DNA from: Morinoia aosen
Lineage: Eukaryota > Arthropoda > Malacostraca > Amphipoda > Talitridae
DNA length: 64,000 nucleotides
NCBI GenBank assembly: GCA_030386875.1
Contig: CM059563.1
Span: 46,282,102-46,346,101 of the forward strand
Direction of reading: 5' to 3'
Of the stretch, positions 3,301 through 62,335 are shown one piece after another. The number at the start of each line of letters is the position of its first letter. Position 1 is the stretch's first letter. A program made the position numbers and the translations under genes. The notes under the pieces were generated by a model that ran no database searches, was not told where the DNA came from, and saw only the letters and a program-made list of their open reading frames with translations.

Positions 3301-6300
3301 TAAACTTGCCGCAATAAGGTTAAGAGTTAAACATTGAGATAGACCATTAAGCAGCAACGTAACTCTAGCCTAACACTTTTGTTTTATGCTTAAAATTAAG
3401 CTTAGCATTTAGCATTAGGCGAAATCATTAAGCATTAAGGAGCAACATTAACCATAAAACGTCCCGCATTATACTTGATGCTGAACATTCAGTGAATGAA
3501 CAGGCCGTTGTGATGCTGTGGTGCACAGGTGCTGTCATCGGGTGCCATCACGGTGGGGCTGCAGGACGGGAGGCTAGTGAGCCCCCCGGCCTCACCAGGC
3601 ACCCACTCGTGGGACGCGTGCTGGCTGCACCACGACTCCCTCGCCTACGTCCTGCTGCCGAGCCCTGGCCGGTCACAGCTCCAGAACATCCATGTCAGCA
3701 ACGAGTCTCGAACCGCTCAGAGTGGGGTACAGCTCCCGATATTTACGTGAGTCCACTCTCATTGTAAATTATGAGTAATAATCTGTAGGTGCTGCGTATT
3801 TTCCATTTTGATTAGAAACAATGAGTAATAATCTGTGAGTGCTGCGTACTTTTCCATTTGGATTAAAAATTATGAGTAATAATCTGAGTGCAACGTAATT
3901 TTCCATTTTGATTAGAAACAATGAGTAATAATTCATGAGTGCTACTTTTCCATTCTAGTTGGAAATAGTGAGTTAAGCGTAATGAGTTGTAGTTGTTCAC
4001 GAGTTGTATTTTTCCATTATGATTAGAAATAATGAGTAATAATCCGGGAGTATGACTTTTCCATTCAGATTGGAAATAATAAGTAAAAAGGTTGCGAAAT
4101 TTTAATTAGAAATGCATATCTTGAGAGCACCTTCTGATGAGAAGCGACGAAATATAATCCGAAAAGTTTACGAGCATGAATTTTAAATTCGGATCAAATC
4201 TCTGAAGGCTCTATGCTTTATTGGTTCTGCAATTTTTTTCGGTCAAGTTTTGGTGAAGTTGGTGGTGCTAGCTTTGAAATCGTGAATTCTCCCTCTATCG
4301 GCCCCTGAAAATCATTTCACTCTTGTTGGTTGTTGGTAACGATTTTCCTCCTAGTAGATAGCTTTTGATCATATTTTCTGTACCTCGAGGAGGTCTGATA
4401 TTTAAATTTCAGGCACAAAGTGCGTAAGTTCTCCTTGGTGCTAATAACTGTAAATGTCATGACAATATATTCAGCAATAGAGTTACGAATATCTTCTCAA
4501 ATGAAAAAATGATCAAGTTGAGCAACGACGAATAATCAAAAGTTTAAGTAAAAATAAATAGGGCTAACGGATTCAAACATAGGCCATTCGCACCCACATA
4601 TTTGATCTCGATTTTTCAGCATGTTAAAGTAGCATGAAAATTTCTCATCGTGAACTTCAAAATATGATCGAAATAATCCAGTATGTGATTTATACATGCG
4701 TTGAGGTAAGCTTGGCAACTATAAATAAAAATTTTACTATAGACAGGAAATAAATCTTCCATAAACAGTTCATTTGTGAGATGTTTGTTGTAAATGAGCA
4801 ATGATGGGCTGACCACGATTGTCTTTATATATATGCATATGTACATTTGTATTGAATTCCCTTGACATTTAAATTACATTATGCTTACAATATATGCAAG
4901 AAGATTCACTATACGAGGTGGTACCCCGAAACAAGCAGCGATTGTGTAAAGCGTAATATACCACATAGATTCATAACACTTTAATTCATTACACACAAAG
5001 GGGATGTTTGGCGTAATGTACCCGACAGATTCATATCACATTTTAATTCATTATACATGAATGTGATGTTTGGCGTAATGTACCCTACAGATTCATAATA
5101 CATTTTAATTCACCATACATGAATGTGATGTTTGGCGTAAGGTACCCTACAGATTCATATCACATTTTAATTCATTATACATGAATGTGATGTTTGGCGT
5201 AATGTACCCTACAGATTCATAATACATTTTAATTCACCATACATGAATGTGATGTTTGGCGTAATGTACCCGACAGATTCATATCACATTTTAATTCATT
5301 ATACATGAATGTGATGTTTGGCGTAATGTACCCTACAGATTCATAATACATTTTAATTCACCATACATGAATGTGATGTTTGGCGTAAGGTATCCTACAG
5401 ATTCATAACACATTTTAATTCACTATACATGAATGTGATGTTTGGCGTAATGTACCCTACAGATTCATATCACATTTTAATTCATTATACATGAATGTGA
5501 TGTTTGGCGTAATGTACCCTACAGATTCATAATACATTTTAATTCACCATACATGAATGTGATGTTTGGCGTAAGGTACCCTACAGATTCATAACACATT
5601 TTAATTCACTATACATGAATGGGTTGTTTGGTGTGATATACCCTACAGATTTACAACACTTCATTTCACATGAATGAGATGAATGAATAAAATGTACAAT
5701 GATTATCCCTCCAGGAGTTGGGTGTCTCACGGTGGGCAGCCCACTGATGCCCACTACTCGTACGCCTACCTGCCTACCGCGTCCGCTGGTGTGGCAGCCC
5801 ACTTCGCTGCAGTGCCCACCGTCAGTGTGCTCAGCAACGACCGTGGGGCGCATGTTGTGTGTGGCCGTGAAGACAAGGTGAGACGATGCTTTAAGTATCT
5901 TTAACCAAGATTTAGCTTGGTTTGAACAAACTTTGTGCGCTCAAATGATGTTTAGGTGGGCTCAACCAATGTTTATGTCTGCCAAACTAATATTTATGTC
6001 TGCCTAAGCAATATTTAATCAGGAACCTTTTGATCGGTATTTTGCGAATTTACTGTCATTTACTCGTTTTTTAAATGAAAAATTGCTAAAATTAACTGTA
6101 AAAAAAAATTTAAGCGATATCATCATTTATCAATTAACAGTAGTTAATCACGCTCGTTCATTCGGACTTACGCCTACATATTTTCGTTTATTCAAATCTG
6201 CAGATTTGCTGAAAAAAGGTATCTCCCGAATTTAGCTAGCTAAAAATTGATAAAATTATATTATTTCACATCCAAGAGTTTGTGTTCAATTTCTTTTTCT

Positions 6301-9300
6301 TGAGTTTATCTTAAGCTTCCACGTGAAATTCTGAGGGTCCAATCCATTGCTCTGAAATGCTTTCAGAGATAATTGCAGTATGATAAACATTTGGCTTGAA
6401 ACGCCTTAAAACAACTCAATAACGTTTGTACGTCACGTCGAGAGCTTTTGTATTCTTCTCCGATCATTTGGGCTCGAGTTCTAGCACAGCATGACAGCAA
6501 GAATTTTTCCACATGTGGAGACGCTATCCTAGAATGAGAATGAGGGTGACTGTTTTAAAATTTTTGCACTAATTTCTACATAAACCCGATTGCTCCACAT
6601 TAAATAGATTAACCAGGTATAAAGATTATCTTTACCAGCGGTTAAAACGTAGGTTCTAGAGCAGAAGTTTTAGTCATGACTGTCCGAGAGATGTGTCGAC
6701 CATCAAACTCAGGAGAGGGCTAGTAAAGATGAGTCCTGCGGCACTGGAGTCCTCCAGAATAATGGGCGTGAAAAATGCTGGTGTCCTGTGGATGCGCTTT
6801 TAGGGGAATAAAATTGTGAATGAAGTAAACTTGAGTGGAATTTCGAATCAGGCTTCAATAGATTAGTGTTGTTTAAAATTACATTTATGCTGGAGTCGTT
6901 AGTTGTCAACGTGCGCGAAACTTGCTCTTCTGTGGGTGTATTTGAAAGTGACACAGTAACATTGCTTGTAAGCTTATACCTCGTTCCTTGGCTTCTGTTG
7001 GTTAAGTATTGCCGCGTTAAGAAAGCCGTTCTTTTTTGACTCATATATTCCTGGAGATAAAAAGTGCTCACCGCACAATTCCAGCACGAATACACGTGCT
7101 TCATAAAATTAAATGAGACTGTACAGGGGCCTAATATTTAAATAATTCGAGATTTCATGACAGCAATTTTCTAATGTGAGACGCTGTCAAATGCATTGCT
7201 ACCACGGAACAAATTGCTTGGATTTCTGACTGAACTCTTAAAAATTTAAGCAGCTCCAAAACGGCGACTAATGTTGTGGTTTGCGTACCACTACAACTGG
7301 TACATTCAATACTTGAATGTTTTATAATTATCATTACTAGATTAAAACCGCTTTGTAATTTTACCATTTTCGACTAATATTGTTGGCCGTGGAACCTGGA
7401 AGCGTCTTTCCTGGTCGTTCTTCATTCAGTTTCGGTTTTAGAATTCGATCGTTTTTTAGTATATGATACCATAAATCTAGAAATTGTGGACATTTATTTG
7501 TTAAGGTCAATTTCCAAGAAAAAAACAGTGATGTTCTGTTCAAAATAATTTTTTAATTAAACGAACCCGAGCTTGCGAGTGTTTGTGATGATTTATCGCT
7601 ATTTTCTGAGACTTACAGGGTACAAAAGGCTTCAATTTCCCCGAACATTCAATTCCTAACTTCTGCATCACCTGCTTCATGCAGAAGTCGAATAGGCTCA
7701 AGAACGACATGGAAACTGTCTCGTTATTGATGATTAATGTGAGACATTTATAGGCCGCTCGAGTGATTTTCATTCGATGATATCCTCGTCGAACTTCTTG
7801 ATATTGAAATTAAATGTCTCGACAGCCCTGACTTTTAAAAATAACTCATTTAATGTTGAGGCAGATTATTTGAAGTGTGATAATTTGAACCAATGACAGA
7901 AAATTTTGTCGAACATTCTATAGCATTTACATGAACGAAATACACTCTGATCTTAGAAATATATTTAACTTGGAAAATACTGACAAATAAACTATTTGAT
8001 ATTCATGGTGTGAGGAAATGGACGATTAACTTGTAAATAAAGATAAAAATTTAGGTTGATCAAAACCCTCAAAGCTGACTCATTTTCCATAATATACTCC
8101 TGCGTGCAGGTGGTGAGTGTTGTGCTGTGGACACCCGGACACATCGACATCTCCAAGTGCCTGCCCTCCTCGCTGCTGCCCTTGCTGCACGACTGGAACG
8201 ACGTCGGAGCAAGAACCTATTCGGGCGGAACTTCGCTCAAGCCACTCGAAGAAGAAACGAATACCGATGATGACGAGCGCAAGCCATTCAGGTATCTCCC
8301 CAAATTCAAGAACGATCGTGCCAGCAATGATATTGAAGAGGATGTAGCAGAAGAGAATTTTAATTCAAACGTTGATGATATGGGAATTTCAAGTCATTAT
8401 CGGCTCACTATTGGATCAGACAAAGGAGTTATTTTGATTATCAAGCCTCTGATTGATCATATAGGTGATCCAAATCAAGTGCGAATAGTGCCACTTACCG
8501 ACGAGCGCACAAGCCCGTCTGTGCTTGCAAACAACGAAGCAGGGAGCGACACGCATGCCTATCACCATTACTACTCGTCCTCTTCACTTGGCATCCCAGA
8601 GGAGCCCGACCAACACCCTCCGACGTTGCTTTCCTTGTACAGAACGCTCCTTCCCAGCAGCCGACAAGACGGGCGAATGAAACGACACGCTGTTCACGAT
8701 ACCGACTTAAATCCATCTTTTCAATCGATGAATATTGAAGTCGATCATAAGCATTCGATACCTGTAAGACTCCTGGAAAATACGATGAGTACTGTGCCTG
8801 GAAAAATTTATCAGAAGCCTGTTAGAACTGATACTTCACTCGATTCCTCACAATTTTCTACATCACCACGTGCAGGTTATCTTGAAGTCTTAGCACGTAA
8901 CATTCCTGTTTCGAATTACAATGCTTCTGCTTCTGAACGTGAGCGCTATGTTGAAGCCCACTCAAATGAACTGCAATTTGGTGAACATCTTTTAAATGTT
9001 GACATTCAGTTACCTGTAACAAATTTTCAAAATTTTACTTTGGATGCATTACAGAATCACATACAAGAAGTGATACAAACTGTCATTACTGAAACCGAAA
9101 ATGAATATAGAAACCTAAATTCAGTGGTAGCGGACGATTTATCTGTACATAGTCCAATTGAGTTGCCTCAATCTGTTGATAGTGAAAGGTTGAGAAATTA
9201 CCCTAAAGTCGCCCATCACAGTTTTGAAAATGTCGATGATAAAGAGTCAAGCCAACAGTTGTCAACACCGTCATCTATGACATCCGCTCGCTCAATGTTC

Positions 9301-10365
9301 GTGAATGATATTCCTATTCCTGGAGTATTTCAAATCTTAAGTGCTCAAGCACCAATCGAATCCATTTCTTTCGTTCCTGTTGAAGATCAAGAAAACGAAT
9401 ATCTAACCCCGTTACATTTGAACGAGAAGGGCACGCAATACATGTACGATGCAGAACAATACGACCATCTCTCCGCGCAAAACACAATTCCAAGAGTTAA
9501 TCTATCGAGCCCAGACAACACCGGCCAAGAGTTCACCGATCTTAGCTCGAAGGAAAGAGAACTGGACGGCCCGGCGGTTCAAGAACAAGGAAGAGGCGAT
9601 TTCCCGATAGCTAATGACACCATTACCTGGCTTGCTGGCCAGCGCTGGGAGGAGAGCCGCCTCAAAAATACACCTCTGGCCTCACGCGCAAGGAAGCTTG
9701 GTCATCTTATGTCGAATGATGAGCTTAATTTGGCGAATGAGCACTTCATTAGGCATAATGATACTGAGCAGGCAAGATCTACAGATGACAGTGTCAATTC
9801 ATATGAAGACATAGGTAGTGAAGTATCAGGAAATTATTTTGACTTATATCAACTTTCAGAGCTTAAAGAATCGTCTCTTCAAAGAAACCACAGCGACAAA
9901 CTCGAAAAAATCTCAATTCGCTCAAGGCAAGACTTAAACTTTGAAGAAATGCCATTGTTAAACGAAAAAAATGTTAATTTCTCTAGTCATGTCCGGAGAG
10001 AGGCAAAAAAATTATGTTTCAATATCAGCGTTGCTGATCCAAACCAAATAGCTTATAGCGTTACTATAACGTTGAGATTAACAAGGCGAATTACAACTCA
10101 AATTAATATTCGACTATCAGAAAAAACGATCAGCTCTGGGTCGAGCTTTCACTACTTCACTCAAAGCCAAAGCGGCGTAAATATACCGCGCAATCGAGAG
10201 TCAAGCTATGCTCCTTTTACTTACGAAAGTTCATTGGCAGATGGTCTTGATGAAAGCATTCCTCCAAAATCTGAGGATAATGAAGTCAGAACAGTTACGA
10301 CATCCATTGATTTACCTGGTGAACCTCATAGAGGGTCGTCAGTCCATCAAGTGCTCTGTTTGTGA
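227..10365 (+). CDS. PL8-family glycosaminoglycan lyase, 3' part of a multi-exon gene
   Basis: Five exons join in phase: 227-361, 1046-1285, 3529-3746, 5715-5877 and 8110-10365. PL8 enzymes cleave hyaluronan or chondroitin sulfates by beta-elimination and are normally secreted. In the joined product I see the family landmarks in order: a DG turn followed by DWWRVPGVTS, GGATDGTVG, LTAKKSWHFF with VALGSDISS and TTLNQ, WLHHDSLAYVLL, SHGGQPTDAHYSYAYLP, and a final SVADPNQ strand. From memory they align with bacterial chondroitin AC lyase (KAWFFFDKEIVCLGAGI, TTTLNQ, WLLHDAIGYYF, INHGARPENAQYAYIVLPG, AADPLQ). The N-terminal alpha-toroid and the catalytic His, Tyr, Arg and Glu lie left of the window, so activity cannot be judged here. 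The last exon carries a large insertion. No other gene is interleaved. Substrate preference is not deducible. Confidence 0.87.
362..1045 (+). other. lyase intron
   Basis: AT-rich intron with donor GTTAGT and a strong T-rich tract before the acceptor at 1045. I see no repeat array or internal gene. Confidence 0.8.
1046..1285 (+). CDS. PL8 lyase exon (beta-sandwich core)
   Basis: This is an 80-codon, phase 0/0 exon with acceptor TTTTTTCAG at 1045 and donor CAG|GTATTC at 1285. It encodes the most diagnostic part of the family: AGG/GGATDGTVGTAAMLL, then LTAKKSWHFFSDCVVALGSDISS and a terminal TTLNQ. In bacterial chondroitin AC lyase the same order reads GGVSDGVYG, KKAWFFFDKEIVCLGAGI, TTTLNQ. Its high GC content at third codon positions stands out from the AT-rich introns on both sides. 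Confidence 0.93.
1404..1745 (+). repeat. dispersed repeat family, copy 1
   Basis: This copy shares with the copies at 10.8-13.7 and 48.1 kb the words TTGTGCTTAGATTCCCCG, CCATACTAAATCGTCC, and GCCGTGGCTAAGGAGTCTTAAACTAA, the last run cited here only in part as GGCTAAGGAGTCTTAAAC. It ends in an AAT-rich tail. No coding capacity is seen. The tail suggests a SINE or the 3' end of a LINE. Confidence 0.65.
2470..2830. repeat. ancient degenerate repeat of about 60 bp
   Basis: Phrases such as GAATTGGTGGTGCGTTGAG and AAATTACCAAATTCA recur with heavy divergence about every 60 bp for some six units. It looks like an old minisatellite no longer being homogenised. Confidence 0.4.
3150..3470. repeat. degenerate TTAAGCATTA-type simple repeat
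   Basis: The words AAGCATTA, TTAAGTTAAG and AGCATTAAGGAGCA recur irregularly. No fixed period is clear. It lies in the lyase intron just before exon 3529-3746. Confidence 0.45.
3529..3746 (+). CDS. PL8 lyase exon (beta-sandwich, HHD strand)
   Basis: The exon opens in phase 0 after GTGCACAG and ends after two bases of a codon (AC|GTGAGT), giving 72 codons plus two bases. WLHHDSLAYVLLPSPG matches the conserved WLLHDAIGYYFPEG strand of PL8 enzymes, and LQNIHVSNES matches the following strand and turn. The preceding TTLNQ continues directly into VLSSGAITVG, as in TTTLNQSWL of the bacterial enzyme, which supports the exon junction. Confidence 0.9.
3765..4090. repeat. about 50-bp minisatellite, degenerate
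   Basis: Units start ATGAGTAATAATCTG and end TTTTCCATTTTGATTAGAAA. Five to six copies of 47-60 bp lie directly downstream of an exon donor. Divergence increases to the right. Confidence 0.75.
4943..5660. repeat. 62-bp minisatellite, about 12 copies
   Basis: Each unit contains GTGATGTTTGGCGTAATGT, ACAGATTCATA and TTTTAATTCA. The period is 62 bp. Variants (ATATCAC...CATTATAC, AATAC...CACCATAC, AACAC...CACTATAC) follow one another in an ordered pattern, which indicates dimeric or trimeric higher-order copying. The array ends about 50 bp before the 5714 splice acceptor. Confidence 0.9.
5715..5877 (+). CDS. PL8 lyase exon (end of central domain)
   Basis: The acceptor CCCTCCAG at 5714 and donor AAG|GTGAGA at 5877 bound one base plus 54 codons, which completes the split codon from the previous exon. 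The peptide includes SHGGQPTDAHYSYAYLP, the family signature seen as INHGARPENAQYAYIVLPG in bacterial PL8 enzymes, followed by VPTVSVLSNDRGAHVV, equivalent to APKVLANTNQLQAV. Third positions are GC-rich. A 62-bp minisatellite ends about 50 bp before the acceptor. Confidence 0.93.
5878..8109 (+). other. lyase intron without recognisable elements
   Basis: The donor is GTGAGA and the acceptor TGCGTGCAG. I see no array or transposon. Several minus-strand open frames occur between 6709 and 7773, the longest 131 codons, but they resemble nothing I know and are treated as chance. Confidence 0.7.
8110..10365 (+). CDS. PL8 lyase last exon: C-terminal beta domain with very large insertion
   Basis: The exon has 751 codons plus a TGA stop and starts after CTGCGTGCAG. 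The first residues, VVSVVLWTPGHIDIS, and a strand SDKGVILIIKPL (about 8413-8450) match the start of the PL8 C-terminal domain (MVQAIFYTAGKL, TDKPCAVLIKHI). The end, LCFNISVADPNQ (about 10012-10047) through SIDLPGEPHRGSS, matches VIWAADPLQ and the final strands. About 515 residues lie between these strands, and another 80 or so between the first two. Codon third positions change from GC-rich to AT-rich near 8225. The stop gives a natural family C-terminus. The frame is open for 2.3 kb with no break. Confidence 0.85.
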   Translation: MVSVVLWTPGHIDISKCLPSSLLPLLHDWNDVGARTYSGGTSLKPLEEETNTDDDERKPFRYLPKFKNDRASNDIEEDVAEENFNSNVDDMGISSHYRLTIGSDKGVILIIKPLIDHIGDPNQVRIVPLTDERTSPSVLANNEAGSDTHAYHHYYSSSSLGIPEEPDQHPPTLLSLYRTLLPSSRQDGRMKRHAVHDTDLNPSFQSMNIEVDHKHSIPVRLLENTMSTVPGKIYQKPVRTDTSLDSSQFSTSPRAGYLEVLARNIPVSNYNASASERERYVEAHSNELQFGEHLLNVDIQLPVTNFQNFTLDALQNHIQEVIQTVITETENEYRNLNSVVADDLSVHSPIELPQSVDSERLRNYPKVAHHSFENVDDKESSQQLSTPSSMTSARSMFVNDIPIPGVFQILSAQAPIESISFVPVEDQENEYLTPLHLNEKGTQYMYDAEQYDHLSAQNTIPRVNLSSPDNTGQEFTDLSSKERELDGPAVQEQGRGDFPIANDTITWLAGQRWEESRLKNTPLASRARKLGHLMSNDELNLANEHFIRHNDTEQARSTDDSVNSYEDIGSEVSGNYFDLYQLSELKESSLQRNHSDKLEKISIRSRQDLNFEEMPLLNEKNVNFSSHVRREAKKLCFNISVADPNQIAYSVTITLRLTRRITTQINIRLSEKTISSGSSFHYFTQSQSGVNIPRNRESSYAPFTYESSLADGLDESIPPKSEDNEVRTVTTSIDLPGEPHRGSSVHQVLCL
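8456..10005 (+). other. about 515-residue hydrophilic insertion inside the lyase C-terminal domain
   Basis: The segment begins just after the strand GVILIIKPL and ends just before LCFNISVADPNQ, where bacterial relatives have only a short turn. It is rich in Ser, Glu, Asp, Asn and Gln, has almost no Cys, and no membrane segment or known domain that I recognise. I see many N-glycosylation sequons (NAS, NFT, NLS, NDT, NHS, NFS), which suits a secreted protein. A furin-type RMKR lies at 8674-8685, and a second basic pair (VRRE) lies at 9991-10002, close to the far end. It is probably intrinsically disordered. Function unknown. Confidence 0.7.
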
Positions 10366-13949: not shown

Positions 13950-14480
13950 CAATCTGAAGATTCTTTCAAGTGCTGTGTTGATATTTTTGTGTGCCTTTTT
14001 TGTTTTAAATTGATGAACAGTTTTTCTGGAGAAGATATTCTGTTAATTGGTAAACTTTTGAAATGACTTACGGAATTAAAAAATTTCTTCCACAATTTTT
14101 TTACTAATGGAGAGCTCTTTTCCAGAGCTTTTTTCAACTGTTTGACATTTTTCCGATATGATTTTACGTCAAAATCAACGAACACTATTCCAGTATTTTA
14201 TTTCCAACTTATGAACATTTATCAGGCATGATTTTGCTTTCAAATTGATGAACATTGTTCAACCTTTTTTTCAAAATTACTTAACATCCTTCTGACATGA
14301 TTTTGCTTTAAATTGGCTTACAGTGTTACAACGTTCTTTAATTATTCAACATTGATTATACATGATTTCTTTTCGAAATTTACATACATTGTTAGGGCAA
14401 TTTTAACAAAAATAATTATTCTGCCATTATTTTAATTTTAAATTTGCGTACATTTTTGTTGCATTTTTCCCTCATTGAAC
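13950..14480. repeat. degenerate minisatellite of about 70 bp
   Basis: The words AAATTGATGAACA, TTTTTCAA, TTAACATCC and TGACATGATTTTGCTTT recur at about 65-75 bp for six or seven units with much drift. Confidence 0.55.
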
Positions 14481-28115: not shown

Positions 28116-28119
28116 TAAG

Positions 28120-30012
28120 AAAGAAATACGATAAAGCGTGTTGGGAAACAAATGCGATAAGGCGTGTTGGGAAACAGATGCGATAAAGCGTGTTGGGGAA
28201 CAAATGCGATAAAGCGTGTTGGGAAACAAATGCGATAAAGCGTGTTGGGGAACAGATGCGATAAAGCGTGTTGGAAACAAATGTGATAAAGCGTGTTGGG
28301 AAACAGATGCGATAAAGCGTGTTGGAAACAAATGTGATAAAGCGTGTTGGGAAACAGATGCGATAAAGCGTGTTGGGGAACAAATGCGATAAAGCGTGTT
28401 GGGAAACAAATGCGATAAAGCGTGTTGGGGAACAGATGCGATAAAGCGTGTTGGAAACAAATGCGATAAAGCGTGTTGGGGAACAGATGCGATAAAGCGT
28501 GTTGGAAACAAATGCGATAAAGCGTGTTGGGAAACAGATGCGATAAAGCGTGTTTAGAAACATATGCGATAAAGCGTGTTGGAAACAAATGTGATAAAGC
28601 GTGTTGGGAAACAGATGCGATAAAGCGTGTAGGGGAACAAATGTGATAAAGCGTGTTGGGAAACAGATGCGATAAAGCGTGTTGGGAAACAGATGCGATA
28701 AAGCGTGTTGGGGAACAGATGCTATAAAGCGTGTTGGGAAACAGATGCGATAAAGCGTGTTGGGAAACAGATGCTATAAAGCGTGTTGGGAAACAGATGC
28801 TATAAAGCGTGTTGGGAAATAGATACTGTAAAGCGTGTTGGGAAACAAATGCTATAATGCGTGTTGGGAAATAGATACTGTAAAGCGTGTTGGGAAACAA
28901 ATGCTATAATGCGTGTTGGGAAACAGATGCTATAAAGCGTGTTGGGAAACAGATGCTATAAAGCGTGTTGGGAAACAGATGCGATAAAGCGTGTTGGGAA
29001 ACAGATGCTATAAAGCGTGTTGGGAAACAGATGCTGTAAAGCGTGTTGGGAAACAGATGCTATAAAGAGTGTTGGGAAACAGATGCGATAAAGCGTGTTG
29101 GGAAACAGATGCTATAAAGCGTGTTGGGAAATAGATGCTGTAAAGCGTGTTGGGAAATAGATGCTACAAAACGTGTTGGGAAATAGATGCTGTAAAGCGG
29201 GTTGGGAAACAAATGCGATAAAGCGTGTTGGGAAACAAATGCTATAAAGCGTGTTGGGAAACAAATGCGATAAAGCGTGTTGGGAACAAATGTGATAAAG
29301 CGTGTTGGGAAACAGATGCGATAAAGCGTGTTGGGAAATAGATGCTGTAAAGCGGGTTGGGAAACAAATGCGATAAAGCGTGTTGGGAAACAAATGCTAT
29401 AAAGCGTGTTGGGAAATAGATGCTATAAAACGTGTTGGGAAATAGATGCTGTAAAGCGGGTTGGGAAACAAATGCGATAAAGCGTGTTGGGAAACAAATG
29501 CTATAAAGCGTGTTGGGAAACAAATGCGATAAAGCGTGTTGGGAACAAATGCTATAAAGCGTGTTGGGAAACAAATGCGATAAAGCGTGTTGGGAACAAA
29601 TGCTATAAAGCGTGTTGGGAAACAAATGCTATAAAGCGTGTTGGGAAACAAATGCGATAAAGCGTGTTGGGAACAAATGCTATAAAGCGTGTTGGGAAAC
29701 AAATGCTATAAAGCGTGTTGGGAAACAAATGCGATAAAGCGTGTTGGGAACAAATGCTATAAAGCGTGTTGGGGAACAAATGTGATAAAGCGTGTTGGGA
29801 AACAGATGCGATAAAGCGTGTTGGGAACAAATGTGATAAAGCGTATTGGGAAACAGATGCGATAAAGCGTGTTGGGGAACAAATGTGATAAAGCGTGTTG
29901 GGAAACAGATGCGATAAAGCGTGTTGGATAACAAATGTGATGAAGCGTATTGGGAAACAGATGCGATAAAGCGTGTTGGGAAACAAATGCTATAAAGCGT
30001 GTTGAGAAATAC
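28120..30012. repeat. 26-bp minisatellite, about 72 copies
   Basis: The core is GATAAAGCGTGTTGGGAAAC, 25-27 bp per unit, varying at GCGATAA/GCTATAA and CAAAT/CAGAT. Flanks show a longer ancestral motif (GTTGGGCTGAATTGTGCC on the left, GTTGGGCTAAATTGTACC on the right). The period is not divisible by three, so several overlapping minus-strand frames of up to 261 codons open. I treat them as artefacts. Confidence 0.95.
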
Positions 30013-33789: not shown

Positions 33790-36700
33790 GCCAATTTACG
33801 TTCTCGTAATAAATATTTACCTTCGCTCAATAAATATTTATCTCCGCTCAATAAATACTCAAATTTGTTCAATAGTTATTTATCTTCGCTCGGTAATTAT
33901 GTACATCCACTTAATATTTATTTACGTTTACTCAATATTTATTTCCGTTCGCTCAATAATTATTTACATCCGCTCAAAAATGATTTACATCCGCTCAATA
34001 TTTATTTATATCCGCTCAACAGTTATTTACATCCGCTCAACAATTATTTACCTTCGCTCAATAATTACTTACGTTCGCTCAATACTTATTTACATCCGCT
34101 CAATAATTATTTACATCCGCCCAACAATTATTTACATCCGCTCAATAATTATTTACATCCACCCAACAATTATTTACATCCGCTCAATAATGCTATACAT
34201 CCGCTCAATATTTATTTATATCCGCCCAACAGTTATTTACATCCGCTCAATAATTATTTACATCCGCTCAACAATTATTTACATCCGCTCAATAATGATT
34301 TACATCCGCTCAATATTTATTTATATCCGCCCAACAATTATTTACATACGCTCAATAATTATTTACATCCGCCCAACAATTATTTAAATCCGCTCAATAA
34401 TGATTTACATCCGCTCAATATTTATTTATATCCGCCCAACAATTATTTACATACACTCAATAATGATTTATATCCGCCCAACAATTATTTACATCCGCTC
34501 AATAATGATTTACATACGCTCAATATTTATTTATATCCGCCCAACAATTATTTACATACGCTCAATAATTATTTACATCCGCCTAACAATTATTTACATC
34601 CGCTCAATAATGATTTACATCCGCTCAATGTTTATTTATATCCGCCCAACAATTATTTACATACGCTCAATAATTATTTACCTTCGCTCAATAATTACTT
34701 ACGTTCGCTCAATACTTATTTACATCCGCTCAATAATTATTTACATCCACCCAACAATTATTTACATCCGCTCAATATTTATTTAAATCCGCCCAACAAT
34801 TATTTACATCCGCCCAACAATTATTTATATCCGCTCAATAATGATTTACATCCGCTCAATAATTATTTACATCCGCCCAACAATTATTTACATCCGCTCA
34901 ATATTTATTTAAATCCGCCCAACAATTATTTACATCCGCTCAATAATGATTTACATCCGCTCAATAATTATTTACATCCGCCCAACAATTATTTACATCC
35001 GCTCAATAATGATTTACATCCGCCCAACAATTATTTACATCCGCTCAATAATGATTTACATCCGCCCAACAATTATTTACATCCGCTCAATAATTATTTA
35101 CATCCGCCCAACAATTATTTACATCCGCTCAATAATTATTTACATCCACCCAACAATTATTTACATCCGCTCAATATTTATTTAAATCCGCCCAACAATT
35201 ATTTACATCCGCCCAACAATTATTTACATCCGCTCAATAATGATTTACATCCGCTCAATAATTATTTACATCCGCCCAACAATTATTTACATCCGCTCAA
35301 TAATGATTTACATCCGCCCAACAATTATTTACATCCGCTCAATAATGATTTACATACGCTCAATAATTATTTACATCCGCCCAACAATTATTTACATCCG
35401 CTCAATAATGATTTACATCCGCCCAACAATTATTTACATCCGCTCAATAATGATTTACATCCGCTCAATAATTATTTACATCCGCCCAACAATTATTTAC
35501 ATCCGCTCAATAATGATTTACATCCGCCCAACAATTATTTACATCCGCTCAATAATGATTTACATACGCTCAATAATTATTTACATCCGCCCAACAATTA
35601 TTTACATCCGCTCAATAATGATTTACATCCGCCCAACAATTATTTACATCCGCTCAATATTTATTTATATACGCCCAACAATCATTTACATACGCTCAAT
35701 AATTATTTACATCCGCCCAACAATTATTTACATCCGCTCAATAATGATTTACATCCGCCCAACAATTATTTACATCCGCTCAATAATGATTTACATACGC
35801 TCAATAATTATTTACATCCGCTCAATAATTATTTACATCCGCCCAACAATTATTTACATCCGCTCAATAATGATTTACATCCGCCCAACAATTATTTACA
35901 TCCGCTCAATAATGATTTACATACGCTCAATAATTATTTACATCCGCCCAACAATTATTTACATCCGCTCAATAATGATTTACATCCGCTCAATATTTAT
36001 TTATATACGCCCAACAATCATTTACATACGCTCAATATTTATTTACATCCGCCCAATAATTATTTACATACGCTCAATAGTTATTTACATCCGCTCAATA
36101 ATGATTTACATCCGCTCAATATTTATTTATATCCGCCCAATAATTATTTACATACGCTCAATAATTATTTACATCCGCTCAATAATTATTTACATCCGCC
36201 CAACAATTATTTAAATCCGCTCAATATTTATTTACATCTGCCCAACAATTATTTACATCCACTCAATAATTATTTACATCCGCTCAATATTTATTTACAT
36301 CCGCCCAACAATTATTTACATCCGCCCAACAATTCTTTACATCCGCTCAATAATTATTTACATCCGCTCAATAATGATTTACATCGCTCAATATTTATTT
36401 AGATCCGCTCAACAATTATTTACATCCGCTCAATAATGATTTACATCCGCTCAATATTTATTTATATCCGCCCAACAATTATTTACATACGCTCAATAAT
36501 GATTTACATCCGCTCAATATTTATTTATATCCGCCCAACAATTATTTACATACGCTCAATAATTATTTACATCCGCCTAACAATTATTTACATCCGCTCA
36601 ATAATGATTTACATCCGCTCAATATTTATTTATATCCGCCCAACAATTATTTACATACGCTCAATAATTATTTACATCCGCCCAACAATTATTTACATCC

Positions 36701-39700
36701 GCTCAATAATGATTTACATCCGCTCAATATTTATTTATATCCGCCCAACAATTATTTACATACGCTCAATAATTATTTACATCCGCCTAACAATTATTTA
36801 CATCCGCTCAATAATGATTTACATCCGCTCAATATTTATTTATATCCGCCCAACAATTACTTACATCTGCTCAATAATGATTTACATCCGCCCAACAATT
36901 ATTTACATCCGCTCAATAATGATTTACATCCGCCAAACAATTATTTACATCCGCTCAATATTTATTTACATCCGCCAAACAATTATTTACATCCGCCCAA
37001 CAATTACTTACATCTGCTCAATAATGATTTACATCCGCTCAATAATGATTTACATCCCCCCAACAATTATTTACATCCGCTCAATAATGATTTACATCCG
37101 CCCAACAATTATTTACATCCGCTCAATAATGATTTACATCCGCTCAATATTTATTTATATCCGCCCAACAGTTATTTACATCCGCTCAATAATGATTTAC
37201 ATCCACCCAACAATTATTTACATCCGCTCAATAATTATTTACATACGCTCAATACTTATTTACATCCGCTCAATAATGATTTACATCCGCTCAATATTTA
37301 TTTACATCCGCCCAACAATTATTTACATCCTTTCAATAATTATTCACATCCGTCCAACAATTATTTACATCCGCTCAATAATGATTTACATCCGCCCAAC
37401 AATTATTTACATCCGCTCAATAATTATTTACATACGCTCAATAATTATTTACATCCGCTCAATAATGATTTACATCCGCTCAATATTTATTTACATCCGC
37501 CCAACAATTATTTACTTACGCTCAATAATTATTTACATCCGCCCAACAATTATTTACATCCGCTCAATAATGATTTACATCCGCTCAATATTTATTTACA
37601 TCCGCCCAATAATTATTTACACACGCTCAATAATTATTTACATCCGCTCAATAATGGTTTACATCCGCTCAATATATATTTACATCCGCCCAACAATTAT
37701 TTACTTACGCTCAATAATTATTTACATCCGCCCAACAATTCTTTACATCCGCTCAATAATGATTAACATCCACTCAATATTTATTTATATCCGCCCAATA
37801 ATTATTTACATACGCTCAATAATTATTTTCATCCGCTCAATAATTATTTACATCCGCCCAACAATTATTTACATACGCTCTTTATTTACATTTACATTTG
37901 CCCAACAATTATTTACATCCACTCATTAATTATTTACATCCGCTCAATATTTATTTACATCCGCCCAACAATTATTTACATCCGCCCAACAATTATTTAC
38001 ATCCGCTCAATAATTATTTACATCCGCTCAATAATGATTTACATCCGCTCAATACTTATTTATGTCCGCCCAACAATTATTTACATCCGCTCAATAATGA
38101 TTTACATCCGCCCAACAATTATTTACATCCGCTCAATAATGATTTACATCCGCTCAATATTTATTTATATCCGCCCAACAATTATTTACATACGCTCAAT
38201 AATTATTTACATCCGCCTAACAATTATTTACATCCGCTCAATAATGATTTACATCCGCTCAATATTTATTTATATCCGCCCAACAATTACTTACATCTGC
38301 TCAATAATGATTTACATCCCCCCAACAATTATTTACATCCGCTCAATAATGATTTACATCCGCCAAACAATTATTTACATCCGCCCAACAATTACTTACA
38401 TCTGCTCAATAATGATTTACATCCGCTCAATAATGATTTACATCCCCCCAACAATTATTTACATCCGCTCAATAATGATTTACATCCGCCCAACAATTAT
38501 TTACATCCGCTCAATAATGATTTACATCCGCTCAATATTTATTTATATCCGCCCAACAGTTATTTACATCCGCTCAATAATGATTTACATCCACCCAACA
38601 ATTATTTACATCCGCTCAATAATTATTTACATACGCTCAATACTTATTTACATCCGCTCAATAATGATTTACATCCGCTCAATATTTATTTACATCCGCC
38701 CAACAATTATTTACATCCTTTCAATAATTATTTACATCCTTCCAACAATTATTTACATCCGCTCAATAATGATTTACATCCGCCCAACAATTATTTACAT
38801 CCGCTCAATAATTATTTACATACGCTCAATAATTATTTACATCCGCTCAATAATGATTTACATCCGCTCAATATTTATTTACATCCGCCCAACAATTATT
38901 TACTTACGCTCAATAATTATTTACATCCGCCCAACAATTATTTACATCCGCTCAATAATGATTTACATCCGCTCAATATTTATTTACATCCGCCCAATAA
39001 TTATTTACACACGCTCAATAATTATTTACATCCGCTCAATAATGGTTTACATCCGCTCAATATATATTTACATCCGCCCAACAATTATTTACTTACGCTC
39101 AATAATTATTTACATCCGCCCAACAATTCTTTACATCCGCTCAATAATGATTAACATCCACTCAATATTTATTTATATCCGCCCAATAATTATTTACATA
39201 CGCTCAATAATTATTTTCATCCGCTCAATAATTATTTACATCCGCCCAACAATTATTTACATACGCTCTTTATTTACATTTACATTTGCCCAACAATTAT
39301 TTACATCCACTCATTAATTATTTACATCCGCTCAATATTTATTTACATCCGCCCAACAATTATTTACATCCGCCCAACAATTATTTACATCCGCTCAATA
39401 ATTATTTACATCCGCTCAATAATGATTTACATCCGCTCAATACTTATTTATGTCCGCCCAACAATTATTTACATCCGCTCAATAATGATTTACATCCGCC
39501 CAACAATTATTTACATCCGCTCAATAATGATTTAAATCCGCTCAATATTTATTTATATCCGCCCAACAATTATTTACATACGCTCAATAATTATTTACAT
39601 CCGCCCAACAATTATTTACATCCTCTCAATAATGATTTACATCCGCCCAACAATTATTTACATCCGCTCAATAATTATTTACATCCGTTCAATATTTATT

Positions 39701-39765
39701 TACATCCGCCCAACAATTATTTACATCCACTTGGTAATCATTTACGTTCGCTCAGTTCGCTTAGT
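33790..39765. repeat. giant 21-bp minisatellite, roughly 280 copies
   Basis: The unit is close to TTTACATCCGCTCAATAAT plus two bases, with main variants CGCCCAACAATTA, CGCTCAATAATGA, CGCTCAATATTTA and TACGCTCAATAATTA. The period divides by three, so two plus-strand frames stay open together for kilobases (LHPLNNY-type and YIRSIII-type; the longest is 914 codons, 33658-36402, starting at GTG). Single-base length changes end the frames. There is no ATG-started protein with a plausible N-terminus, so I call it non-coding. Copies are arranged in nested higher-order repeats. Confidence 0.97.
36600..39765. repeat. 1388-bp higher-order repeat inside the 21-bp array
   Basis: A rare junction CTCTTTATTTACATTTACAT occurs at 37878 and again 1388 bp later at 39266, and the order of unit variants before and after it is the same in both. 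The second copy is followed by the start of a third, which is broken off at about 39765. The left boundary is estimated. Confidence 0.85.
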
Positions 39766-61357: not shown

Positions 61358-62335
61358 CTAAAAGAGCTGTTGTAACGCCGCCTTTGTAGAGCTGTTGTGA
61401 TGCCGCCTTTGTAGTGCTGTTGTGATGCCGCCTTTGTAGTGGTGTTATGATGCCGCCTTTGCAGAACTGTTGTGATGCCGCCTTTGTAGTGGTGTTGTGA
61501 TGCCGCCTTTGTAGAGCTGTTGTGATGCCGCCTTTGTAGTGGTGTTGTGATGCCGTCTTTGTAGTGGTGTTATGATGCCGTCTTTGTAGAGCTGTTGTGA
61601 TGCCGCCTTTGTAGTGGTGTTGTGATGCCGCCTTTGTAGTGGTGTTGTGATGCCGCCTTTGTAGAACTGTTGTGATGCCGCCTTTGTAGTGGTGTTGTGA
61701 TGCCGCCTTTGTAGTGGTGTTGTGATGCCGCCTTTGTAGAGCTGTTGTGATGCCGCCTTTGTAGTGGTGTTGTGATGCCGCCTTTGTAGAGCTGTTGTGA
61801 TGCCGCCTTTGTAGTGGTGTTGTAATGCCGCCTTTGTAGAGCTGTTGTGATGCCGCCTTTGTAGTGGTGTTGTGATGCCGCCTTTAAAGTGGTGTTGTGA
61901 TGCCGCCTTTGTAGTGGTGTTGTGATGCCGCCTTTGTAGTGGTGTTGTGATGCTGCCTTTGTAGAGCTGTTGTGATGCCGCCTTTGTAGTGGTGTTATGA
62001 TGCCGCCTTTGTAGAGCTGTTGTGATGCCGCCTTTGTAGAGCTGTTGTGATGCCGCCTTTGTAGTGGTGTTGTGATGCCGCCTTTGTATTGGTGTTGTAA
62101 CGCCGCCTTTGTAGAGCTGTTGTGATGCCGCCTTTGCAGTGTTGTTGTAATGCCGCCTTTGTAGTGGTGTTGTGATTCTGCCTTTTTGGTGGTGTTGTGA
62201 TGCCGCCTTTGTAGTGGTGTTGTGATGCTGCCTTTGTAGTGGTGTTGTGATGCCGCCTTTGTAGAGCTGTTATAATTCTGCCTTTGTCGTGGTTTTGTGA
62301 TGCAGCCTTCGTATTTTGGTGCAGACTTTATAGAG
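61358..62335. repeat. 25-bp minisatellite, about 38 copies
   Basis: Units read GTAGTGGTGTTGTGATGCCG plus CCTTT, alternating with GTAGAGCTGTTGTGATGCCG. Three units equal 25 codons, so a minus-strand frame of 301 codons (61570-62475) stays open. It has an ATG but a purely repeat-derived sequence and is treated as an artefact. Confidence 0.95.

Follow-up and report, generated by a model that had tools for sequence, protein, structure and literature searches.

A PL8 lyase gene in the amphipod Morinoia aosen with a proposed 518-residue acidic loop in its C-terminal β-domain

Exon organization and identity of the PL8 gene

The 64,000-nucleotide stretch of the Morinoia aosen genome analyzed here, which we designate the window (contig CM059563.1 of assembly GCA_030386875.1, positions 46,282,102 to 46,346,101), contains the 3′ part of a PL8 (chondroitin AC lyase-like) gene and starts inside it; the gene lies on the + strand, has introns, and is present in one copy. 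The coding exons in the window, all on the + strand, are exon A (227–361, its start placed from the acceptor and the profile described below), exon B (1046–1285), exon C (3529–3746), exon D (5715–5877), and the last coding exon, exon E (8110–10365), which comprises 751 codons and a stop codon in one open frame. The junctions of these exons are of the GT-AG type and all in phase; exon E starts at 8110 with a cag acceptor just before it and a phase that matches exon D. The 751-codon exon appears to keep the strands of the C-terminal β-domain in order and has three enlarged loops, the largest of which comprises 518 residues inside a proposed hairpin.

The prokaryotic PL8 set came from 80 genome loci, with 4 further records labelled as plasmid or phage, and our own profile was built from 74 of these proteins (70 of the 80 loci, which passed a length filter, and the 4 other records). 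The PL8 identity, which an initial annotation had proposed from the DNA, was borne out: (i) exons A–D joined to the head of exon E (279 residues) had chondroitinase AC (1cb8) as the best solved-structure match, with an E-value of 2.7e-18; (ii) PF02278, the Lyase_8 central β-domain, gave a single match in the 1.99-Gb genome, which scored 58.2 bits, above the cut-off, and lay in exon B; (iii) exon C scored weakly alone (5.5 bits), and exon D was assigned by the profile and its in-phase junctions; and (iv) a 401-residue joined query matched the genome at 8 places, all 8 of which were exons of this gene. No second lyase gene was seen in the genome with this query, and no match was found on viral contigs.

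Upstream of the window, our profile located four candidate PL8 exons (about -2581 to -2451, -5002 to -4846, -10571 to -10469, and -30515 to -30407, counted from base 1 of the window). The exon at -2581 to -2451 was strong after joining to exons A and B (140 bits for the three joined exons); the remaining three had weak scores but were ordered, and in phase where adjacent. A candidate exon with the motif NWW scored 9.0 bits (domain E-value 0.028), and the candidate exons with IHQH...YSINYG and GRFIDS scored 9.6 bits when joined. We take NWW, His, Tyr, and Arg to be the active-site residues of PL8 enzymes. In the exon at about -10571 to -10469, the putative catalytic residues His and Tyr lie 11 residues further apart than in a bacterial relative, and some residues flanking the proposed active site look changed. 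Lyase_8_N (PF08124) found nothing over the cut-off genome-wide, the genome search with Lyase_8_C and Lyase_8_N returning only a weak match to something unrelated on a different contig (E-value 8.3, under the cut-off), and much of the Lyase_8_N α-domain was not found within 60 kb upstream. Provided that the missing N-terminal exons exist, the core is expected to adopt the PL8 lyase fold.

The core is common to prokaryotic PL8 lyases, the nearest of which by distance is that of a Planctomycetes metagenome-assembled genome (L015). When the animal core was placed in a tree with the 84 prokaryotic sequences, the nearest groups had supports of 0.16 and 0.09, and we therefore claim no donor.

The C-terminal β-domain and its enlarged loops

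Three loops of exon E, all on the + strand, differ in length from their prokaryotic counterparts: (i) insert 1 (8164–8394), an acidic segment of 77 residues with an isoelectric point (pI) of 4.24, lies between flanking anchors that are separated by 16–24 residues in prokaryotes; (ii) insert 2 (8455–10008), an acidic segment of 518 residues that lacks cysteine and is unique in the genome, lies where the hairpin of 84 of the 84 aligned prokaryotic PL8 proteins has 7–21 residues (median 11), in agreement with the short turn that the initial annotation had given for bacterial chondroitin AC lyase; and (iii) the last loop (10093–10284) has about 64 residues, compared with 9–43 residues between similar anchors in prokaryotes (63 of 84 measurable). 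Exons A–D differed little in these alignments; therefore, the expansion appears to be confined to the last exon. Without the two inserts, the score of exon E against our profile rose from 0.6 to 9.6 bits, a gain partly expected from any gap removal.

Insert 2 is bounded by GVILIIKPLI on the left and KLCFNISVADPNQ on the right. The left flank HYRLTIGSDKGVILIIKPLI (8395–8454, + strand), which is weak by profile alone, is proposed to be hairpin strand X, and no stretch other than GVILIIKPLI offers itself for the strand between the exon start strand and strand Y. The right flank, KLCFNISVADPNQIAYSVTITLRL... (10009–10104, + strand), was assigned to strand pair Y by the profile, the alignment, and the model, and KLCFNISVADPNQIAYSVTITL in strand Y matches the VADPT strand with a profile score reached by 0 of 500 shuffles. 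The start of exon E matches the bacterial FW..G strand, and its last 26 residues align with the end of prokaryotic PL8 proteins, where the C-terminal strands VRTVTTSIDLPGEPHRGSSVHQVLCL lie (10285–10362, + strand; score reached by 22 of 500 shuffles). Among three MAFFT alignments, one, with the two halves of the exon as extra rows, aligned the left flank to the prokaryotic strand and kept the strand order W-X-Y-Z; the one built from split fragments could not be used. Given the assignment of the left flank to strand X, 518 residues replace the hairpin of 7–21 residues found in prokaryotes.

The AlphaFold model of exon E, computed from 10 rows (exon E, two of its own pieces, and 7 prokaryotic fragments), has strands at residues 2–6, 10–13, 91–103, 107–114, 636–642, 650–665, and 725–734, with a block predicted local distance difference test (pLDDT) score of up to 91, that is to say, confident strands on both sides of insert 2. 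Most blocks of the insert have a pLDDT near 30, and the sole part above this background is a predicted helix (9040–9138, + strand; exon E residues 311–343) with a block pLDDT of about 59–72, which also appeared, at low confidence, in the model computed without an alignment.

Coding signal, composition, and origin of insert 2

The frame of exon E is open from 8047 to 10365, covering both flanks of the insert. Insert 2 has no in-frame stop codon, compared with a mean of 29.6 and a minimum of 14 in 2,000 mononucleotide shuffles, and its other five frames have 23–48 stops. The open segment of the initial annotation (about 515 residues, 8456–10005) is thus confirmed with slightly different limits, as is the location of both flanks in one gene; a two-gene reading was rejected on the single frame with no stop between the flanks. 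The period-3 signal of the insert is 11.4, compared with a median of 0.8 in 238 neighboring windows, 14 of which reach the value of the insert: 13 overlap tandem arrays, and the 14th lies in another long open frame. A stop-free, period-3 segment of 518 codons is expected of coding sequence, which argues against an exitron, that is, optional splicing that would remove most of insert 2 and yield a compact lyase in certain tissues. An in-frame GT-AG pair of 1,395 nt (8464|8465 to 9859|9860), whose donor lies 10 nt past the left edge of the insert, has scores of 5.7 and 5.0, which fall toward the weaker end of the ranges of the gene's own donors (5.1–10.6) and acceptors (3.3–11.5). However, these scores rest on a simple consensus matrix, 6 donors in exon E exceed 5.1 and several of its acceptors reach 5.0 or more, which makes a candidate pair near the edges unsurprising, and the splicing would keep about 53 residues of the insert. 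We regard such splicing as improbable.

The GC content at third codon positions (GC3) of exon E is 0.88 in the first 32 codons and 0.37 in the remaining codons (0 of 1,000 shuffles), with a change point at about 8206, whereas that of eight other exons is 0.61–0.87. This drop could mean that exon E beyond about 8206 is a younger coding tail that is not derived from a lyase and whose strands X and Z resemble lyase strands by chance. A second long open frame nearby likewise has a high GC3 at its head (0.81) and a lower one in its body (0.44), and a drop like that in exon E may therefore be common among the long disordered exons of this genome. This single-copy frame of 834 codons (-35140 to a stop at about -32638 upstream of window base 1, same strand) contains a 60-nt repeat in 8.4 copies and a disordered-looking remainder, and ends in TAG. 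A shortened copy of it had no Pfam match, no clear likeness between it and exon E was found (best E-value 0.069), and it may be the last exon of a neighbor or part of the PL8 gene. With the significance of strand Y and the alignment of the C-terminus to the end of prokaryotic PL8 proteins also standing against it, a younger tail seems a poor explanation.

The composition of insert 2 differs from that of a mucin-like segment, with 17% serine plus threonine and 5.8% proline. The initial annotation had described the segment as rich in N-glycosylation sequons, which was not the case: the 7 sequons present compare with a shuffle mean of 6.06 (P = 0.40). Its alternative description as disordered stood, narrowly, by charge–hydropathy (mean hydropathy 0.415, boundary 0.437). 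The pI is 4.97 and the charge is about -32 at pH 7; the mean entropy over 45 residues is 3.77 bits, without a tandem array. A glycosylated, mucin-like arm tethering the enzyme to matrix, as the initial annotation had suggested from a hydrophilic segment with sequons, is thus very unlikely at this chance-level sequon count and composition: glycosaminoglycans are anionic and would repel an acidic insert, so that a shield, a spacer, or a removable segment is likelier than a tether.

No second copy of insert 2 was found genome-wide by DNA or protein search, with very common words skipped, and a recent repeat or transposon origin was rejected on this ground. Entry of a mobile element or duplicated segment into the hairpin codons, with the 13-nt direct repeat TGATCCAAAYCAA at the insert edges (8466–8478 and 10035–10047, + strand; 12 of 13 positions identical) left as a target-site duplication, can be largely discounted on the same ground, since the low chance of this repeat (0.003 by shuffling; 4 of 1,319 random exon window pairs), whose copies share the codon frame (GDPNQ and ADPNQ), was computed after the repeat was seen, and exon E has seven other repeat families of similar length.

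An acidic arm on the β-domain

The best reading of the window gene is that of a genuine animal PL8 lyase, the C-terminal loops of which have grown into long acidic disordered arms in a layout like that of the factor VIII B domain, and insert 2 is probably a translated, disordered loop of a true PL8 protein. Insert 2 would form an acidic and largely disordered arm that projects from the β-domain at a distance from the catalytic α-domain, and would be tolerated there since the tip of the hairpin is exposed to solvent. The loops would leave the C-terminal β-domain at one edge, which in PL8 structures lies away from the active site; the arm therefore need not disturb catalysis. The most likely role of insert 2 would be that of a bulky negative shield or spacer. 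The furin-like motif RMKR (8674–8685, + strand) may be a site of trimming by a proprotein convertase, which would leave two chains held together by strand pairing in the β-sheet, although we consider such trimming rather unlikely.

Several observations weigh against the reading of insert 2 as a disordered loop of a PL8 lyase: (i) the profile score of the left flank GVILIIKPLI alone was reached by 117 of 500 shuffles, so that the view of both flanks as lyase strands in the initial annotation holds for the right flank and is weak for the left; (ii) the other two MAFFT alignments misplaced the left flank, with the prokaryotic strand inside the insert in one and the pieces scattered in the other; (iii) no Pfam domain was found in exon E, insert included, at E ≤ 1, and the Lyase_8_C profile had no match in the 1.99-Gb genome; (iv) in the AlphaFold model computed without an alignment, 722 of the 751 residues had a pLDDT below 50 and the core strands were equally poor, and the low pLDDT of the insert is therefore no proof of disorder; (v) a Foldseek search with the exon E model gave no PDB match at E ≤ 0.001; and (vi) RMKR arises by chance in 14% of shuffles (P 0.14).

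Comparison with known systems

Most known PL8 lyases are bacterial. The likeness of the window gene to chondroitinase AC of Flavobacterium (1cb8, 1hm2), a PL8 enzyme, extends over exons A–D and the start of exon E, with the same order of C-terminal strands. Unlike Flavobacterium chondroitinase AC, the M. aosen gene (i) is an animal-type gene with introns, (ii) has C-terminal loops of 77, 518, and about 64 residues, and (iii) spaces the putative catalytic His and Tyr 11 residues further apart.

The B domain of factor VIII is a large, poorly conserved, disordered segment encoded by one long exon between folded parts, with a convertase site near it, and is carried and then lost. We compare it with insert 2 as to how it may work and claim no homology. 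N-glycans abound in the factor VIII B domain, which lies between domains, whereas insert 2 is not rich in N-glycan sites and lies inside a β-hairpin. A hairpin with 518 residues instead of about 11 would also be a useful case for the tolerance of folded domains to disordered insertions.

A solved structure of ODV-E66 exists, and none of the 27 PDB sequences that the joined exons retrieved at E ≤ 10 was an ODV-E66 entry. Insert 2 itself gave one chance-level match to a tail-fibre protein among PDB sequences (E-value 0.015). The baculovirus protein ODV-E66 is described as a PL8 enzyme from an arthropod-associated source (PMC7793863). Among the matches listed in our literature search, no title or abstract describes an arthropod PL8 gene.

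On sequence grounds, a chromosomal, intron-bearing PL8 gene in an arthropod would be a concrete candidate for β-elimination on hyaluronan, chondroitin, or similar substrates. In red king crab, β-elimination of hyaluronan was reported as unexpected in a crustacean extract, with the activity at 40–50 kDa assigned by the authors to a 42.5-kDa animal-type hyaluronidase; the term "PL8" does not occur in the text of that paper, and no PL8 gene is named in the parts covered (PMC8604925). This lyase-type activity is the reaction that PL8 enzymes perform, and a link to the window gene is hypothetical. It would be far-fetched to suppose that crustacean-like arthropods own a PL8 lyase that is the unrecognised enzyme behind hyaluronan β-elimination in crab hepatopancreas, and that the 518-residue acidic loop keeps this lyase inactive or soluble until cut. 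We know of no zymogen-like loop device of this kind in lyases.

Other features of the window and genome

No tRNA was found in the window by ARAGORN with bacterial settings. Large minisatellite arrays occur at window positions 28119–30009, 33808–39754, and 61368–62313 and upstream at -27737 to -19953, with periods of 26, 21/42/63, 25, and 28/42 nt, respectively. Some of these arrays yield long stop-free frames without being genes, and beyond position 14000, the listed frames of at least 150 codons lie mostly inside tandem arrays. A genome search for 7tm_6 gave no match, although its controls gave none either, so that this is no proof of absence. The presence of TTAGG arrays, along with the crustacean neurohormone family at four loci, points to a crustacean-like arthropod.
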